Below are positions 10,896 to 43,621 of a stretch of DNA of 64,000 bases, piece by piece. Position 1 is the first letter of the stretch; each line of letters opens with the position of its first letter. This stretch comes from Natrarchaeobaculum aegyptiacum (lineage in GTDB: Archaea > Halobacteriota > Halobacteria > Halobacteriales > Natrialbaceae): contig NZ_CP019893.1 in assembly GCF_002156705.1 (NCBI RefSeq), positions 2,232,001 through 2,296,000 on the forward strand, in the 5' to 3' direction. A program made the position numbers and the translations under genes. The notes beneath the pieces are model-generated. The model was not told the DNA's origin and did no database searches. It saw only the letters and a list, made by a program, of their open reading frames with translations.

Positions 10896-10970
10896 TCGGT
10901 CGCGCTCGAGTACAGCTTTCTCGGTACTGCAAGACCCCGGCTAGTCGTCTTTCACTCCTGTTAAGGGTCT

Positions 10971-11499
10971 GTTGGTTTTCGATATATTATCTGTACTCGA
11001 GTATATGGAGAGTAGACCGAGCACACCTCGAAAGCCCCCGGCACGCTCGCGGCGGCTGGCGTCGTGCGCGCCTCGACTCGCTTACGGCCTTCGCTCGCCT
11101 GCGGTGCTACCAGCCACCAGCCGCCGCGACCGCACCGGCCCCTTTCAATCCCACCCGGTCCTCGCCCTCCCCAGCCGACTCCCTCACTGCGTTCGCTCGC
11201 CCCTCGCGCTTCAACGACCTGGCCTCGCGATACTCGGACAGGTCGTCGGCGCGCCAGCCGGCCGGGAGCGCGCCGCCGCGCCGTTCGCGCGGTGGCGCGT
11301 GAGTCGGCGAAAGAGCACGCTCTTCCGAGCATCGCGAACCCGTCGGGTTCGCTCAACGGGGAAGGGCAGGCGTTCTACGGCCCTGGTGGATTGAAAGGGC
11401 GAAGTGCGGTTGCGGTCGTTCAGGCGGCCCTATCCGAGCATACGAGGATATCCGCCTGAACGACCGCAAGCGTGCTGAGGGCTTTCGTCGTGTTCTCGT
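10971..11499. repeat. Dispersed intergenic repeat, copy A
   Basis: The reverse complement of this segment matches 42477-42778 in several blocks separated by unrelated filler: the acgagaaca end, a hairpin block, a CCCTTTCAATCCACCAGG block, and an end block running from GGGGCTTTCGAGGTGT to CGAGTACAGA and a short AT-rich tail. Copy A is longer (529 versus 302 bp). It carries the CCTTTCAATCC(C)ACC motif twice in opposite orientation (11141-11155 and 11385-11399). No credible protein is encoded. It looks like a non-coding mobile or structured element and shares the matching ends expected of one. Confidence 0.7.
11410..11469. repeat. Perfect 18-bp inverted repeat (hairpin) of repeat copy A
   Basis: TTGCGGTCGTTCAGGCGG at 11410-11427 is perfectly complementary to CCGCCTGAACGACCGCAA at 11452-11469. 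The 24-base loop contains a further TATCC/GGATA pairing (11431-11435 with 11446-11450). The same structure occurs in copy B with compensatory changes. Confidence 0.85.
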
Positions 11500-11566
11500 T
11501 TCTTGTCTCTTTCTTAGAATGGTTGGTGAATTGAGAAGAGTATTCTTGATAGACTCCTAGCCGAAA

Positions 11567-15427: not shown

Positions 15428-15524
15428 GTTCACGGTCGTCGAGTCACTCGCCTGCATCACGTACATGTCAACGCACTCGAGTCACGGACCTCGGCAGACG
15501 ACGCCGGCTCACGCCGTCTGAGCC

Positions 15525-15625
15525 GCCGTCGTTCGGCTGGATGCCGTCGTTCGGCTGGATGCCGTCGTTCGGCTGGATGCCGTCGTTCGGCTGGATGCCG
15601 TCGTTCGGCTGGATGCCGTCGTTCG
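15525..15625. repeat. 18-bp tandem repeat, five copies plus partial sixth
   Basis: The unit GCCGTCGTTCGGCTGGAT is repeated exactly five times (15525-15614), followed by 11 bases of a sixth copy. Each unit contains CGTCGTTCGGC and can form short local hairpins. The array sits 78 bases beyond the stop of the minus-strand membrane regulator and 98 bases after the plus-strand DUF7344-type gene, in the gap between convergent genes. Because 18 is a multiple of three, all six frames stay open, which produces misleading repetitive peptides. Confidence 0.95.
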
Positions 15626-15702
15626 TCCCCGAATACACGGCTCCGATGCCCGACCTGCGGCTGAGCGGCTCCACTCTCCATGCAAAAACCGAGACAGCCG
15701 GT

Positions 15703-27961: not shown

Positions 27962-29044
27962 TCAGTCGTCGACGTACTCGCGTTTCGCCCGTTCGACCGC
28001 CGACTCGACGTCCATCTCGGTGTCCTCGAACGGCAGTTTCGTCAGGCGGTGGGTGAGCACGAGCGGGGCGACGTCCTCGACGTGGTCGATCGATACGACT
28101 GGTTCGTCCCGGTACGCGGCGAGCGCCCGCGCCGCCCGGCGAAGGGTGTTGTCCCCGCGATGGCCGTCGACCTCGAGGTGGACGTTGATCGCCGCGATGG
28201 CCTTCTCGACGGGTTCGGGAACGGTGACGTCGGGCAGTCGTTCGCGCGCGGCGACGATGCGCTGGGTGAGCTCGCGTTGCTGGTCCGCGTACTCGGCGCG
28301 GAAGATCTCCGGGTCGGCGTCGAAGGCGGCCCGGCGACGGCTGATCTCGACGCGCTGGTCGACGTCGTCGATGCCGGCGACGTCGACGACGAGGCCGAAG
28401 CGGTCGAGCAGCTGTGGCCGCAGGGATCCTTCCTCGGGATTCATGGTGCCGACGAGCATGAACTCGGCGGGATGGCGGACGGAGACGCCCTCGCGCTCGA
28501 CGACGTTTTCGCCCATGGCGGCGGCGTCGAGGAGGACGTCGACGAGGTGGTCGTCCAGCAGGTTGACCTCGTCGACGTAGAGGACGTTGCGGTTGGCCTC
28601 GGCGAGGATGCCGGGGTCGAACTGGCGGATGCCGTCGGTGACGGCTCGTTCGACGTCTAGCGTCCCGACGAGGCGGTCGGCGGTGGCGTTCAGCGGCAGG
28701 TCCACCACGCGCATGGGCTCCGTCTTCGTCGGAAGCGTCTCGCCGCTCTCGTAGCGCTCGGTGCAGTCCGGGCACATGCGGTCCGGGCTGGTCGGCGGAC
28801 AGCCGTACGGACAGTCCGCGACGACCGTCCGATCCGGCAACACCTCGGCGAGCGCGCGGACGGTCGTCGACTTGGCGGTTCCTCGTTCGCCACGAACGAG
28901 AACCCCGCCGACGTCGGGATTGATGGCGTTGAGAATCAGGGCCGTCTTCAGCGATTCTTGCTCGACGATCGCTGCGAACGGGTACCTGGTCGTTCGATTC
29001 GTCGATTCAGCTCGGTCGTCGGTCGCGTGTTCCTCGATGTTCAT
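27962..29044 (-). CDS. AAA+ ATPase, magnesium-chelatase ChlI/BchI-like subunit
   Basis: A 360-residue AAA+ protein of the chelatase/MoxR branch. Walker A is GERGTAKST (residues 52-60) and Walker B is LYVDEVNLLDD; Cys77, Cys81, Cys90 and Cys93 form a zinc-ribbon-like insertion between them. Arginine-finger regions and the C-terminal lid follow. ChlI-type rings drive metal insertion into tetrapyrroles or remodel metalloenzymes together with a VWA-domain partner, which is encoded just upstream and overlaps by ATGA (29041-29044). No CobN/ChlH large chelatase subunit is encoded nearby. Residues about 112-276 are nearly identical, also in DNA, to the partner's AAA domain. A longer frame to 29125 is a shadow of the partner gene. 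Confidence 0.9.
   Translation of the reverse strand: MNIEEHATDDRAESTNRTTRYPFAAIVEQESLKTALILNAINPDVGGVLVRGERGTAKSTTVRALAEVLPDRTVVADCPYGCPPTSPDRMCPDCTERYESGETLPTKTEPMRVVDLPLNATADRLVGTLDVERAVTDGIRQFDPGILAEANRNVLYVDEVNLLDDHLVDVLLDAAAMGENVVEREGVSVRHPAEFMLVGTMNPEEGSLRPQLLDRFGLVVDVAGIDDVDQRVEISRRRAAFDADPEIFRAEYADQQRELTQRIVAARERLPDVTVPEPVEKAIAAINVHLEVDGHRGDNTLRRAARALAAYRDEPVVSIDHVEDVAPLVLTHRLTKLPFEDTEMDVESAVERAKREYVDD
28217..28711. repeat. 495-bp near-identical direct repeat, copy 1 (in the ChlI-like gene)
   Basis: This aligns without gaps to 30238-30732 (constant offset 2021) with six mismatches seen by eye, about 98.8% identity, including third-codon positions. Outside the tract the two genes diverge sharply at both ends. 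Such a pattern between tandem paralogues is typical of recent gene conversion. Confidence 0.95.
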
Positions 29045-31017
29045 GGCTGGATGAAGTTTCCGTCTGGGAGGTCGATCAGGGGGACGTACTCGGCGTCCAT
29101 GGCGTCGGCCAGCGTCCGGTTCCACTCGTACTCCTCGCGTTTGGCGTCTCTGGCGGCACTGTCACTCCAGAGGGAGTACTTCGCGTCGTTCAACGCGAAT
29201 CCGGTGTCGAGGTAGACCGCTGACACGTCTTCTTCGTCGAACAGCGAGGCGAACTGTACCGCCTCCTGTTCGGGATCTGCCCCGTTCTCGTAGGGAACGT
29301 TCACCTTCCCGTCGCTCAGCACGAGCACGACCGGGTACAGGTCGTCGTTGCCGCGTCGTTCGCGCTCGATCAATCGGTAGGCGTCGACGAGTCCGTGAGA
29401 GAGCGGCGTATTGCCACCGACCCGGAGCCGTGAGACGCGCCGGCGCGCCCGTCGAACGTTGTACGTCGGCGCTACCTCGACCGACGCGTCCTTCCCACGG
29501 AACGAGATCACCGCAACCTTGTCCCGCGTTCGATAGGCGTCCTCGAGCAGCGAGAGCACGGCGCGTTTGGTCTCGCGCATCTGCGGGCCGTTCATCACGC
29601 TTCCGCTCGAGTCGACGACGAGGACGACGAGTGCCTCGGTCGTCCCCTCGCGGAGCTTCTGACGCAGGTCTTCGGGCTCGACGACGATCGACCGGTCCTC
29701 GTTCGCTTCTCGGTACTCCTGGTTGAGCGCGGCCGCACGAACGGTGGCGTCGACTGCAATATCGTCGACCGTCTCGTCGTCCTGTGCGCGAACGTACCGT
29801 CCACTGCGCCGGCGGACGTCCGACGGGACTCGCCTCGCGTACCGATCCCGGAGTTCGCGGTCCTTCTCGAGCGTGAAGGCCGTGTCGTCGATCGGGTAGA
29901 CTTCACCGTCCTCGACGATGAGTTCGCTCCGCCCGCTGTTGTTCGGGACCTGTCCGTCGGTTCCCTCCTCGGAATCGGACTGTCCGTCGTCGGCCTCGCG
30001 GGTGACCTCCTCCGGCAGGGTCATCGTCGCGCTGGTACTTCCACCCGTCTCCTCGACGGACTGCATCCGGTGGGGCAACGCGAGGGACATCGCCTCCTCA
30101 CAGTGGGCTGTCGTCACCGTTTCCTCACCCTCGAGGGCGGCGATCGCACGCGCCGTCTTGCGGACGGTGATGTCGCCGCGGAGCCCGGCGACGTTGCCGT
30201 CGACTGCCGCGTTCGAAATGTCGTCTTCGATGGGCTGGGGAACGGTGACGTCGGGCAGTCGTTCGCGCGCGGCGACGATGCGCTGGGTGAGCTCGCGTTG
30301 CTGGTCCGCGTACTCGGCGCGGACGGTCTCCGGGTCGGCGTCGAAGGCGGCCCGACGGCGGCTAATCTCGACGCGCTGGTCGACGTCGTCGATGCCGGCG
30401 ACGTCGACGACGAGGCCGAAGCGGTCGAGCAGCTGTGGCCGCAGGGATCCTTCCTCGGGATTCATGGTGCCGACGAGCATGAATTCGGCGGGATGGCGGA
30501 CGGAGACGCCCTCGCGCTCGACGACGTTTTCGCCCATGGCGGCGGCGTCGAGGAGGACGTCGACGAGGTGGTCGTCCAGCAGGTTGACCTCGTCGACGTA
30601 GAGGACGTTGCGGTTGGCCTCGGCGAGGATGCCGGGGTCGAACTGGCGGATGCCGTCGGTGACGGCTCGTTCGACGTCTAGCGTCCCGACGAGGCGGTCG
30701 GCGGTGGCGTTCAGCGGCAGGTCCACCACGCGGACCGCTCGAGTCTCCGTCTGCAGTTGCTCGCCGCACTTCTGGCGGCTTCGGCATCGATCACACAGGT
30801 CGGTGGCTGACGACGGGTCACAGCCGAACGGACAGTCGGTGACGACCGCCTGCTCCGGAAGGACCTCCGAAAACGCCCGTACGGCGGTCGATTTGCCGGT
30901 CCCTTTCTCGCCGTAGAGTAACACACCGCCGATATCGGGGGCGACAGCGTTCACCGTAAGCGCACGTTTCAGCTCGTCCTGGCCGACCATCGCCGCAAAT
31001 GGAAACGGTCCTGTCAT
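29041..31017 (-). CDS. AAA+/VWA chelatase-like protein (ChlD/BchD-like fusion)
   Basis: A 658-residue protein. The N-terminal AAA+ domain has Walker A GEKGTGKST (36-44), zinc-ribbon-like Cys62, Cys66, Cys75 and Cys78, and Walker B LYVDEVNLLDD. An acidic, Ser-rich linker (about 330-380) leads to a C-terminal von Willebrand A domain. Its MIDAS is complete: VVDSSGSVMNG at about 465, GGNTPLSHG, and VLSDGKVNVP. Unlike many ChlD proteins the AAA motor keeps intact Walker motifs. With the ChlI-like partner it should form a hexameric ATP-driven complex that binds a metalloenzyme or chelatase target through the VWA domain. The operon places a metalloenzyme directly upstream. Confidence 0.9.
   Translation of the reverse strand: MTGPFPFAAMVGQDELKRALTVNAVAPDIGGVLLYGEKGTGKSTAVRAFSEVLPEQAVVTDCPFGCDPSSATDLCDRCRSRQKCGEQLQTETRAVRVVDLPLNATADRLVGTLDVERAVTDGIRQFDPGILAEANRNVLYVDEVNLLDDHLVDVLLDAAAMGENVVEREGVSVRHPAEFMLVGTMNPEEGSLRPQLLDRFGLVVDVAGIDDVDQRVEISRRRAAFDADPETVRAEYADQQRELTQRIVAARERLPDVTVPQPIEDDISNAAVDGNVAGLRGDITVRKTARAIAALEGEETVTTAHCEEAMSLALPHRMQSVEETGGSTSATMTLPEEVTREADDGQSDSEEGTDGQVPNNSGRSELIVEDGEVYPIDDTAFTLEKDRELRDRYARRVPSDVRRRSGRYVRAQDDETVDDIAVDATVRAAALNQEYREANEDRSIVVEPEDLRQKLREGTTEALVVLVVDSSGSVMNGPQMRETKRAVLSLLEDAYRTRDKVAVISFRGKDASVEVAPTYNVRRARRRVSRLRVGGNTPLSHGLVDAYRLIERERRGNDDLYPVVLVLSDGKVNVPYENGADPEQEAVQFASLFDEEDVSAVYLDTGFALNDAKYSLWSDSAARDAKREEYEWNRTLADAMDAEYVPLIDLPDGNFIQP
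30238..30732. repeat. 495-bp near-identical direct repeat, copy 2 (in the AAA/VWA gene)
   Basis: Partner of 28217-28711, same orientation. It encodes residues about 96-260 of the AAA/VWA protein. The substitutions cluster near its proximal end, where the encoded peptide reads DPETVRAEY instead of DPEIFRAEY. Confidence 0.95.
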
Positions 31018-41232: not shown

Positions 41233-42303
41233 CTACTCGAGGTCCGCGCCCACGGCTTCCTCGACCGAGCGGAACCCGTCGCGCTCGAGCAAGGTCACGA
41301 GGCCGCGATTGATCCGGCTCGCGGTCGCGGGGCCGCCGTAGACGAATCCGGTGTACAGTTGCACGAGCGACGCGCCGGCGCGGATCTTCGCGTAGGCGCT
41401 GCCGGCCGAATCGACGCCGCCGACGCCGACGATCGGCAGGTTGCCGTCGGTGTGTTCGGCGATCGTTCGAACGACCTCGGTCGAGCGGTCCTCGATCGGC
41501 TTGCCGCTCAGGCCACCCCACTCGTCGCGTTCGGGCGAGTCGAGTCCCTCCCGGCTCGTCGAGGTGTTCGTCGCGACGATGCCGTCGAGCTCGAGATCGA
41601 CCACGACGTCGACCAGTTCCCGAACCGAGTCGGCCGGCGCGTCGGGGCCGATCTTCACCAGTAGCGGGAGGTCGCGGTCGTTCTCGGCCTCGAGGGTCTC
41701 GAAGACCGCTCGAAGGTGCTCCGGGGAACTCTCGTCGAACGAGTCGGGCGTGTTCGGACAGGAGACGTTGACGACGACGTAGTCCGCGAACGGCGAGAGC
41801 CGGTCGAACACGCGCCGGTAGTCCTCGATGGCTTCCTCCTCGCTCGAGGTGTTCATCTTCCCGACGTTGACTCCGAGGGGGACGTCGGGGACGCCGTCGG
41901 TCTCGAGTCGGGCCTTGACGCGTTCCATCCCCTGACCGTTGAAGCCCATCCGGTTGATCATTCCTTCGTCTTCCCGGAGGCGGAAGAGTCGCGGGCGCTC
42001 GTTACCGACCTGCGGATACGGCGTGACGGTGCCGATTTCGGCGAAGCCAAAACCCAGCGCCTCGAGTGCGTGGGTGACTTCGGCGTTCTTGTCGAATCCA
42101 GCCGCCACGCCCACTGGGTTCGGAAACTGGTGCCCGAGGAGGTCGACCTCGAGTGCCGGATGGTCGTACCGGTAGGCCCTGCGGAGAGCCCACCGCGTCG
42201 GTCGCGTCGACTGGGCGGCCCGCAGCGCGCGCTTGCCGAGGTCGTGGGCCGTCTCCGGCGGGAGCGCGAACGCGAGGGGCCGAACCCGCGAGTACAGCGT
42301 CAT
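41233..42303 (-). CDS. pyrD: Quinone-dependent dihydroorotate dehydrogenase
   Basis: A 356-residue class 2 enzyme oxidising dihydroorotate to orotate with FMN and passing electrons to quinone at the membrane. Motifs are VGVAAGFDKNAEVTHAL, FGFAEIGTVTPYPQ, VNVSCPNTPD with the catalytic Ser region, VKIGPDAP, VATNTSTSREGL, IEDRSTEV, GVGGVDSAGSAY and LVQLYTGFVYGG. The N-terminal helix region needed for quinone access (about 1-45) is present, which separates it from class 1. It is monocistronic; pyrC lies elsewhere in the window. Confidence 0.95.
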   Translation of the reverse strand: MTLYSRVRPLAFALPPETAHDLGKRALRAAQSTRPTRWALRRAYRYDHPALEVDLLGHQFPNPVGVAAGFDKNAEVTHALEALGFGFAEIGTVTPYPQVGNERPRLFRLREDEGMINRMGFNGQGMERVKARLETDGVPDVPLGVNVGKMNTSSEEEAIEDYRRVFDRLSPFADYVVVNVSCPNTPDSFDESSPEHLRAVFETLEAENDRDLPLLVKIGPDAPADSVRELVDVVVDLELDGIVATNTSTSREGLDSPERDEWGGLSGKPIEDRSTEVVRTIAEHTDGNLPIVGVGGVDSAGSAYAKIRAGASLVQLYTGFVYGGPATASRINRGLVTLLERDGFRSVEEAVGADLE

Positions 42304-42476
42304 TGCCGGGGGATGGAACCGACGGGTGGTAAACGTCTCGACACCAGTCTCCAGTTCGGTACTGCTGTAACTGCCCCGTCGCCGTTCGGCCCTCGAGTTC
42401 TATCGTTCGATTTCGGCTAGGGGTCAATTATATTCCAATCTCCCCGCATACCATGATTATTGAAAGAGAATAGGGG

Positions 42477-42778
42477 ACGAGAACACCCCGAACGCTCGCA
42501 GTCCGTTCGCGGTCGTTCGGGCGGATGTCCTCGAAGGCTCGGATAGGGCCGCCCGAGCGGCCGCCATCGGACTCACGGGTCGTTACGCTCCCCGTTCGCC
42601 TCCCGCGGTTCTCGCTTCGCTACGAACCGCGCGTACTTCGCCCTTTCAATCCACCAGGCCCGCAGTCAGCCTCCCCTCTCCCGAGTCACGCGTCGATGGG
42701 CGAGCCAGGGGCTTTCGAGGTGTTCTCGATCGATTCCCCATCTGATCGAGTACAGACAATATCTCGAATACCGACAAA
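42477..42778. repeat. Dispersed intergenic repeat, copy B
   Basis: Shorter copy of the element at 10971-11499, in opposite orientation. Shared blocks are the acgagaaca end, the hairpin region 42509-42564, CCCTTTCAATCCACCAGG at 42641-42658, and the end block from GGGGCTTTCGAGGTGT to CGAGTACAGA with an AT-rich tail. Filler between blocks differs from copy A. It fills the 520-base gap between pyrD and the ZIP gene, which otherwise holds only their promoter sides. Confidence 0.7.
42509..42564. repeat. Hairpin of repeat copy B with compensatory changes
   Basis: GCGGTCGTTCGGGCGG (42509-42524) pairs with CCGCCCGAGCGGCCGC (42549-42564). Relative to copy A, one A-T pair has become G-C through changes on both arms, and two A-to-G changes on one arm turn U-A pairs into G-U pairs in RNA, so the stem is preserved. 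Confidence 0.8.
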
Positions 42779-42823
42779 ACGTCGACAGAAGTGAGAGACG
42801 ACTAGCCGATATCTGTCTCACGA

Positions 42824-43621
42824 TCAGACGGCCAGGACGGTGTCGACGACCAGCATGAGCGCGAAGCCGACGACGAACGTGACCGTCGCGGTGTCGGCGT
42901 AGCCGTGACCGTGACTCGAGGGTACCAGTTCCCGGAAGACCACGGCGATCATGGCACCGGCTGCGAAGCCGGCGGCGACGGGGAAGAGGCCGGTGACGGT
43001 GGCGACGAGGACGAAACCGACCGCTGCAGCGATCGGTTCCGGAACGCCACCCGAAAGCGTCGTGTAGAGGACGGTTTTCGCGTTCGAGACGCCGGCTCGA
43101 GCGGCGGGGACGGCCATCGCGAACCCGTCGGGGACGTTCTGGACGGCGATCGCGGTCGCGATGGCGATGCCGAGGCCGGTCTCGCCGCTGGCGAACGCGA
43201 TGCCGACGGCGAGGCCCTCGGGGACGTTGTGGATGGTGACGGCGCTGCCGACGAGTAGTGCGCGGCGGCGGTCGTCTGCTGGCGGTGACTCTTCACTCGA
43301 CTCACCCTCGAGTATCGCCGTCCCCTCGAGTCGTTCACCGCGAAACCGAAGGTGGAGGTGCGGGAGTGCGGCGTTGGCCACGAGGAGAAACCCGGTCCCC
43401 AGGAAGAGGCCAGCGACGACCTCGAGCGGCGTTCCAAACTCGAGGCCGGGGACGAGGAGTGCGAAGACGGCCGCGCCGACCATGACGCCGGCAGCAAAGC
43501 CCACCGCGCCGTCGTAGACGCGATGGCTCACGCGGTCGGCGTAGATCGTTGGGAGCGCCCCGAGACCGGTCGCACAGCCGGCAACGAGCGCAACGGCGAC
43601 GACGGTTCCGAGGGAGGTCAC
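42824..43621 (-). CDS. ZIP family metal cation transporter
   Basis: A 265-residue membrane protein with about eight helices. The metal-translocating helix IV-V motif is plain: TIHNVPEGLAVGIAFAS and AVQNVPDGFAMAVP, with a polar His/Glu-containing loop between helices III and IV. ZIP proteins move Zn2+, Fe2+ or related ions into the cytoplasm. It is most like the GufA-type subgroup. It is divergent from tenA, with a short shared upstream region. Confidence 0.92.
   Translation of the reverse strand: MTSLGTVVAVALVAGCATGLGALPTIYADRVSHRVYDGAVGFAAGVMVGAAVFALLVPGLEFGTPLEVVAGLFLGTGFLLVANAALPHLHLRFRGERLEGTAILEGESSEESPPADDRRRALLVGSAVTIHNVPEGLAVGIAFASGETGLGIAIATAIAVQNVPDGFAMAVPAARAGVSNAKTVLYTTLSGGVPEPIAAAVGFVLVATVTGLFPVAAGFAAGAMIAVVFRELVPSSHGHGYADTATVTFVVGFALMLVVDTVLAV

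Follow-up and report, generated by a model that had tools for sequence, protein, structure and literature searches.

The question raised by this locus is what keeps a hairpin paired while its sequence changes. Two copies of the hairpin, A and B, lie in the window, that is, the whole stretch of 64,000 nucleotides of Natrarchaeobaculum aegyptiacum DNA that was analyzed. Compared to copy A, the stem of copy B has one A-T pair changed to G-C by changes in both arms and two A-to-G changes of the 3' arm that result in T-G pairs. The original prediction took these differences as a sign of selection on RNA structure rather than on DNA sequence, with a single transcribed strand that reads plus in copy B. 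The hairpin proved real, with one double compensatory change and two wobbles exactly as claimed, and the stem in copies A and B is far beyond chance.

Copies A and B and their relatives in the host genome

The features of the two copies are as follows, with positions counted from the first nucleotide of the window.

42414-42808, plus strand: copy B, whole element, degenerate, with imperfect terminal repeats
42414-42430 and 42792-42808: copy B terminal repeats, CGGCTAGGGGTCAATTA and, inverted, CGGCTAGTCGTCTCTCA
42481-42496, plus strand: copy B left half, decayed outer motif, about GAACACCCCGAACGCT, from comparison with relatives (class consensus GAACAnCnnGAAAGCCCC)
42509-42524, plus strand: copy B stem, 5' arm, GCGGTCGTTCGGGCGG, 16 bp
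42549-42564, plus strand: copy B stem, 3' arm, CCGCCCGAGCGGCCGC, 16 bp
42572-42632, plus strand: copy B inserted hairpin module of the ACGGGTCGTT.CGCTCCCCGT type, common to many relatives
42639-42655, plus strand: copy B inner motif, CGCCCTTTCAATCCACC (class consensus GCCCCTTTCAnTCCCACC)
42708-42725, plus strand: copy B right outer motif, GGGGCTTTCGAGGTGTTC
41233-42303, minus strand: neighbor of copy B, dihydroorotate dehydrogenase (PF01180)
42824-43621, minus strand: neighbor of copy B, ZIP family metal transporter (PF02535)
10938-11563, minus strand: copy A, complete element comprising two halves, with terminal repeats at 11547-11563 and 10938-10954
11452-11467 and 11412-11427, minus strand: copy A stem arms, GCGGTCGTTCAGGCGG and CCGCCTGAACGACCGC, 16 of 16 paired
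11385-11495, minus strand: copy A, half with this stem (model R1, 26.9 bits, E 1e-4)
11021-11155, plus strand: copy A, other half (model R1, 50.5 bits, E 1e-10)

The interval first proposed for copy B, 42477-42778, covers only part of the element, which measures about 400 bp rather than 302 and is limited by imperfect CGGCTAG.../...CTAGCCG ends at about 42414 and 42808. Its right half is mostly lost apart from the outer motif. The A and B loci are 80-83% alike and inverted relative to each other. Model R1 was built from 60 half-elements across the class; copy B was too decayed to match it at E < 1. The pyrD-like and ZIP genes that flank copy B were not adjacent in relatives, and thus no empty site could be read for this copy.

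From two copies, the inference to selection on structure is weak. With one change in the 5' arm and three in the 3' arm over 16 pairs, the chance that the 5' change meets a changed partner is 3/16, before the right base is required, and whenever the A of a T-A pair changes to G, a wobble results. The host genome (3.93 Mb, one contig) was searched and found to hold further members of the A/B subfamily (L060, L062, L063, L064 and a partial copy, L061), the ends of which are imperfect 17-bp sequences, CGGCTAGnnGTCTATCA, in inverted orientation. With zero mismatches allowed, these ends were found in 0 of 100 other genomes of the family. When the stems were compared to that of copy A, 3 pairs were compensated and 4 broken in L060, and 1 compensated and 4 broken in L062. 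Additional copies, which the original prediction had named as a check, thus broke 8 of 32 pairs and compensated 4; breakage was as common as preservation, which indicates decaying copies. Cleaner relatives in the same genome read GAACACCACGAAAGCCCC, stem and inner consensus motif, followed after ~26 nt by the inverse, and model R1 gave 23 half-unit matches there. Copies A and B both belong, in decayed form, to a haloarchaea-specific repeat.

Hairpin modules occur inside half-elements. The ACGGGTCGTTTCACTCCCCGTTCG module, which is also inside copy B, was present as four tandem 63-bp copies at L065 (G000:C1:226316-226539), and similar tandem matches were detected in several relatives. At L023 (G000:C1:2204172-2204194), the copy B module appears to lie within a membrane-transporter-like gene with the frame intact, as judged by eye. 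Two further insert forms were observed inside halves: a two-hairpin insert (hairpin-TGATGA-hairpin-AACCACG) with varying hairpin sequences at L122, L136, L141, L186 and others, and CGGGAGA..TCTCCCGAGCA-hairpin-AACG. Other repeats of the window include a tandem 18-bp repeat, GCCGTCGTTCGGCTGGAT, of about six units (15507-15643), and two 300-nt stretches in neighboring minus-strand ORFs (28197-28496 and 30218-30517) that are 96% identical, which suggests recent gene conversion or duplication.

Architecture, spread and mobility of the class-wide element

An intact unit consists of two half-elements of ~110 nt, placed head to head (inverted) with ~26 nt between them. Each half has an outer motif, variable stems and an inner motif, in the consensus forms listed above, and CTAG is often found 20-50 nt outside the unit. 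Of 194 Halobacteria genomes, 138 contained the half-motif, the richest with 61 + 48 = 109 half-units; a reversed control pattern gave 0-1 matches in any genome. The exact dyad was found in 67 stretches among 84,980 species genomes, all under haloarchaeal titles. Matches were also present in 52 plasmid records, of which the named ones were haloarchaeal, mostly with no annotated feature beneath. No match came from phage records or, with the core pattern, from viral contigs, and Rfam searches of the window, 17 loci and host-genome copies at loose thresholds returned nothing beyond tRNAs and weak matches of microRNA type, attributable to chance. The gene pairs around the element were tandem in 37 cases, divergent in 13 and convergent in 6, with 2 elements inside ORFs, and no neighboring gene family was found to recur widely across genomes.

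When half-elements of different genera were compared, the outer motif proved lineage-specific in the bases that precede GAAAG, with for example CACCACG in Halopiger, Haloterrigena and the host genome, CAGCGTG in Halosimplex, and CAGCCAG in Haloarcula. These bases look as if they were co-evolving with a recognizing factor.

Comparison of orthologous loci revealed absence, inversion and replacement. The dyad L025, upstream of a gene that we take from its sequence to be panB-like, was absent in a genome of the same genus (gene gap of 42 vs ~325 nt). At a locus in the genus of G120, which is probably Haloarcula because the loci of G150 are identical to H. amylolytica records, the element was present in L268 and L270, inverted as a whole in L319 and L320, and represented by a scar in four species. 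When inverted, L319/L320 shared 322 of 331 identities with L268/L270, the flanks were collinear up to the outer motif, and the two orientations separate sister species. The element-free Haloarcula sites resemble deletion scars rather than untouched sites, and no clean target-site duplication or untouched site was found at the loci compared. In the left flank of L319 and L320, an extra insertion with CTATAG ends was observed, in two genomes, at the very CTAG that adjoins the element. CTAG was counted 42 times at 20-49 nt outside the outer motif vs ~2.4 expected; of 78 dyads, 14 had it on either flank and 25 on a single flank. Stems were unrelated between orthologous flanks that were 72-94% alike (L186/L267, with flanks ~94% alike; L107/L110/L206; and L091 of the host vs L109 of Halopiger). 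In L190/L266 one half was conserved and the other changed, and between L203 and L204 hairpin modules were gained or lost.

Pairing, strand bias and the folding molecule

Across the 60 half-elements of the class, the GAAAG/CTTTC foot was invariant, double changes were found at every pair of stem P1 (~12 bp) and of the inner stem, P2, and 22 of 29 pairs had double changes. Paired cells amounted to 93.7% vs 38-45% (~42%) with the partners slid, and the covariation score was 0.554 vs 0.06-0.10 in the slid controls. In 200 arm sets, there was a mean of 10.9 of 12 Watson-Crick pairs vs 6.8 with shuffled partners. Stem lengths and C4 internal loops were constant across the class, as were the two motifs, outer and inner. 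Covariation thus held when tested over the wider family, as did the claim that pairing, not sequence, is conserved; the further claim that selection acts on RNA rather than DNA was not supported, given the mismatch spectrum and the inversion. The element is dispersed, lost and inverted as a whole unit, and its stems are replaced, with structure kept without sequence.

The strand claimed earlier (plus in copy B) is here termed the inward strand, and the outward strand is its opposite, read away from the core (GGTGGGAnTGAAAGGGGC...GGGGCTTTCnnGnTGTTC). Internal pairs of the 200 arm sets on the inward strand comprised 1553 Watson-Crick, 8 G-T, 29 A-C, 24 C-C and 4 G-G. The excess of A-C over G-T was significant (p = 0.0008), also when similar arms were collapsed (24 vs 8, p = 0.007); RNA from the inward strand is therefore disfavored, as it would give more G-T than A-C. 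On the outward strand the mismatches become 29 G-T and 24 G-G, about equal numbers, which counts against RNA, where a strong preference for G-U would be expected. G-U pairs made up 0.5% on the inward and 1.8% on the outward strand; a small control of tRNA acceptor stems had 5 G-U in 91 pairs. Among short perfect hairpins with stems of at least 8 from all loci fetched, not from the element alone, 83 of 190 triloops were GNA/TNC, and 7 GNRA tetraloops and 1 UUCG tetraloop were found. GNA triloops are exceptionally stable in DNA; the choice of loops hints at DNA only indirectly. Loop sequence was rejected as a guide to a single folding strand, GAA and TTC loops being equally frequent inside halves, and a comparison of folding energies of isolated P1 arms was set aside as biased by end effects.

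The most serious alternative, although unlikely, is that a structured RNA is encoded on the outward strand of each half and that mobility is secondary. The strong covariation would fit such an RNA, the conserved inner helices are similar to those of structured RNAs, and the outward strand was the more stable in 65 of 93 halves when folded with RNA parameters. The mismatch bias is strand-specific, in C-C over G-G as in A-C over G-T, and an outward-strand RNA would give the same bias. Yet G-U lay below A-C on the inward strand and below the tRNA level even on the outward strand, where it was about as frequent as G-G, and neither a preference for GNRA or UUCG loops nor an Rfam match was found. 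In addition, the ~26-nt center would be too small for two divergent promoters, and the unit is inverted as a whole and stands in free orientation to genes. Considered together, these signs point to DNA folding, with a mild preference for the outward strand.

Template switching also makes double changes, and therefore double changes alone do not indicate RNA. In replication, such switching results in multi-base compensatory changes and both creates and mends hairpins (PMC8794818), and the near-pure Watson-Crick pairs with few wobble intermediates are as expected if one arm is copied from the other. That arm-to-arm switching accounts for the pairing by mutation alone, without selection or function, is nevertheless quite unlikely: it leaves unexplained the class-constant stem lengths, internal loops and motifs as well as the spread to new loci, and copies B, L060 and L062 lose pairing.

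Candidate enzymes, related repeats and interpretation

A Y1 transposase (PF01797) was absent in G077, G174, G064, G218 and G060, which have 46-92 copies each, and for these five copy-rich genomes the link to this enzyme was rejected. Among 35 tnpA/tnpB loci of several genomes, 4 carried a half, no more than a rough expectation, and in the one case inspected in detail the half was beyond the IS end. In the host genome, 2 cases within 3.5 kb vs 1.2 expected gave no enrichment that would link the element to IS605 ends.

These results bear on the possibility that the element is a non-autonomous relative of IS200/IS605 or of REPs, moved by a Y1 transposase. Its anatomy is like that of the PATEs of Haloquadratum walsbyi, non-coding repeats with near-terminal palindromes, a heterogeneous 20-50 nt beyond these and a short terminal oligonucleotide, which exist in many copies and often have other repeats inserted into their palindromes (PMC3119063). 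The element is likewise non-coding and present in many copies, with palindromes near both ends, a variable 20-50 nt beyond, a short terminal oligonucleotide and repeat insertions. As judged by their description, published PATEs are set apart from it: PATEs have no terminal inverted repeats, whereas here the halves are inverted and the A/B subfamily has imperfect 17-bp repeats, and the element differs further in its inverted head-to-head dyad, conserved core and outer motifs, freely rewritten stems, in-place inversion and lack of a clear tie to IS605 ends. REPs, BIMEs and REPINs share with it inverted hairpin pairs, an intergenic location and conserved tag bases at the hairpin foot (PMC3116915, PMC8266576), but the half-element is ~110 nt vs 20-40, its stems are hypervariable, and several rich genomes are without a Y1 transposase. 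Kinship of this sort is thus improbable.

SMR-A of Haloquadratum resembles the element in size (about 110 bp), inverted ends, lack of a known transposase and insertion in palindromes (PMC3119063); SMR-A families are defined by sequence, whereas here the structure is fixed and the stem sequence free. Of the described repeats, PATEs and SMRs come nearest among haloarchaea and REPINs among bacteria. MITEs are similarly short and non-coding, with inverted ends and insertion polymorphism, but in 101 family genomes, searched at zero mismatches, a threshold that diverged ends could escape, no autonomous element was found to share the terminal repeats of the A/B subfamily as their parent would. Integron attC sites are recombination sites recognized by their folded shape, with variable stem sequence; the likeness is in the way of working only, as the element forms head-to-head dyads and no cassette array was seen. 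The core sequences had no match in the literature full texts searched, the portions available of RepRanger and of a MITE review gave no description of the element, and a survey of GTAG/CGTC palindromes has no haloarchaea in it. The haloarchaeal dyad repeat appears undescribed in the texts covered; it is best placed with palindromic mobile repeats and may be of a new kind.

A plus-strand small RNA in copy B is highly improbable: the two T-G pairs on that strand speak for it, but the class-wide mismatches favor the opposite strand, the outward strand gives the better fold in L060 and L062, the plus-equivalent strand being broken at 4 of 16 pairs in each, and both neighbors of copy B are on the minus strand.

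We consider it probable that copy B has decayed from a palindromic, non-coding DNA element that occurs dispersed in haloarchaea, is paired at the DNA level and is mobile and invertible. We infer that the element acts as folded DNA and that some machinery for recombination or transposition makes use of its conserved ends. The working form would be a single-stranded hairpin or cruciform, and the stems would stay paired if only folded copies were used. Template-switch repair, which copies one arm from the other, may help the arms to match, and swapping of halves between loci may add to the pairing. The mild strand bias suggests that the outward strand would be the folding strand. Homologous recombination of the ordinary kind, acting on the conserved motifs in their inverted arrangement, could alternatively account for inversion and swapping. 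More tentatively, the half-units may be class-wide, shape-encoded invertible cassettes, recognized only by their fold and end motifs and exchanged and flipped in place by a haloarchaeal enzyme, which would leave the stem sequence free with the structure retained; we consider this proposal rather doubtful.

Double compensatory changes are usually taken to prove that an RNA is functional. In the present element, which is moved, flipped and swapped as DNA, they are massive, with mismatches and loops that look more DNA-like than RNA-like. The element provides a natural test case in which template switching can be set against selection on folded DNA, and it calls for caution when RNAs are discovered by covariation. 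If it is true that an enzyme recognizes these shapes, haloarchaea would have a recombination system for which we found no described equivalent.
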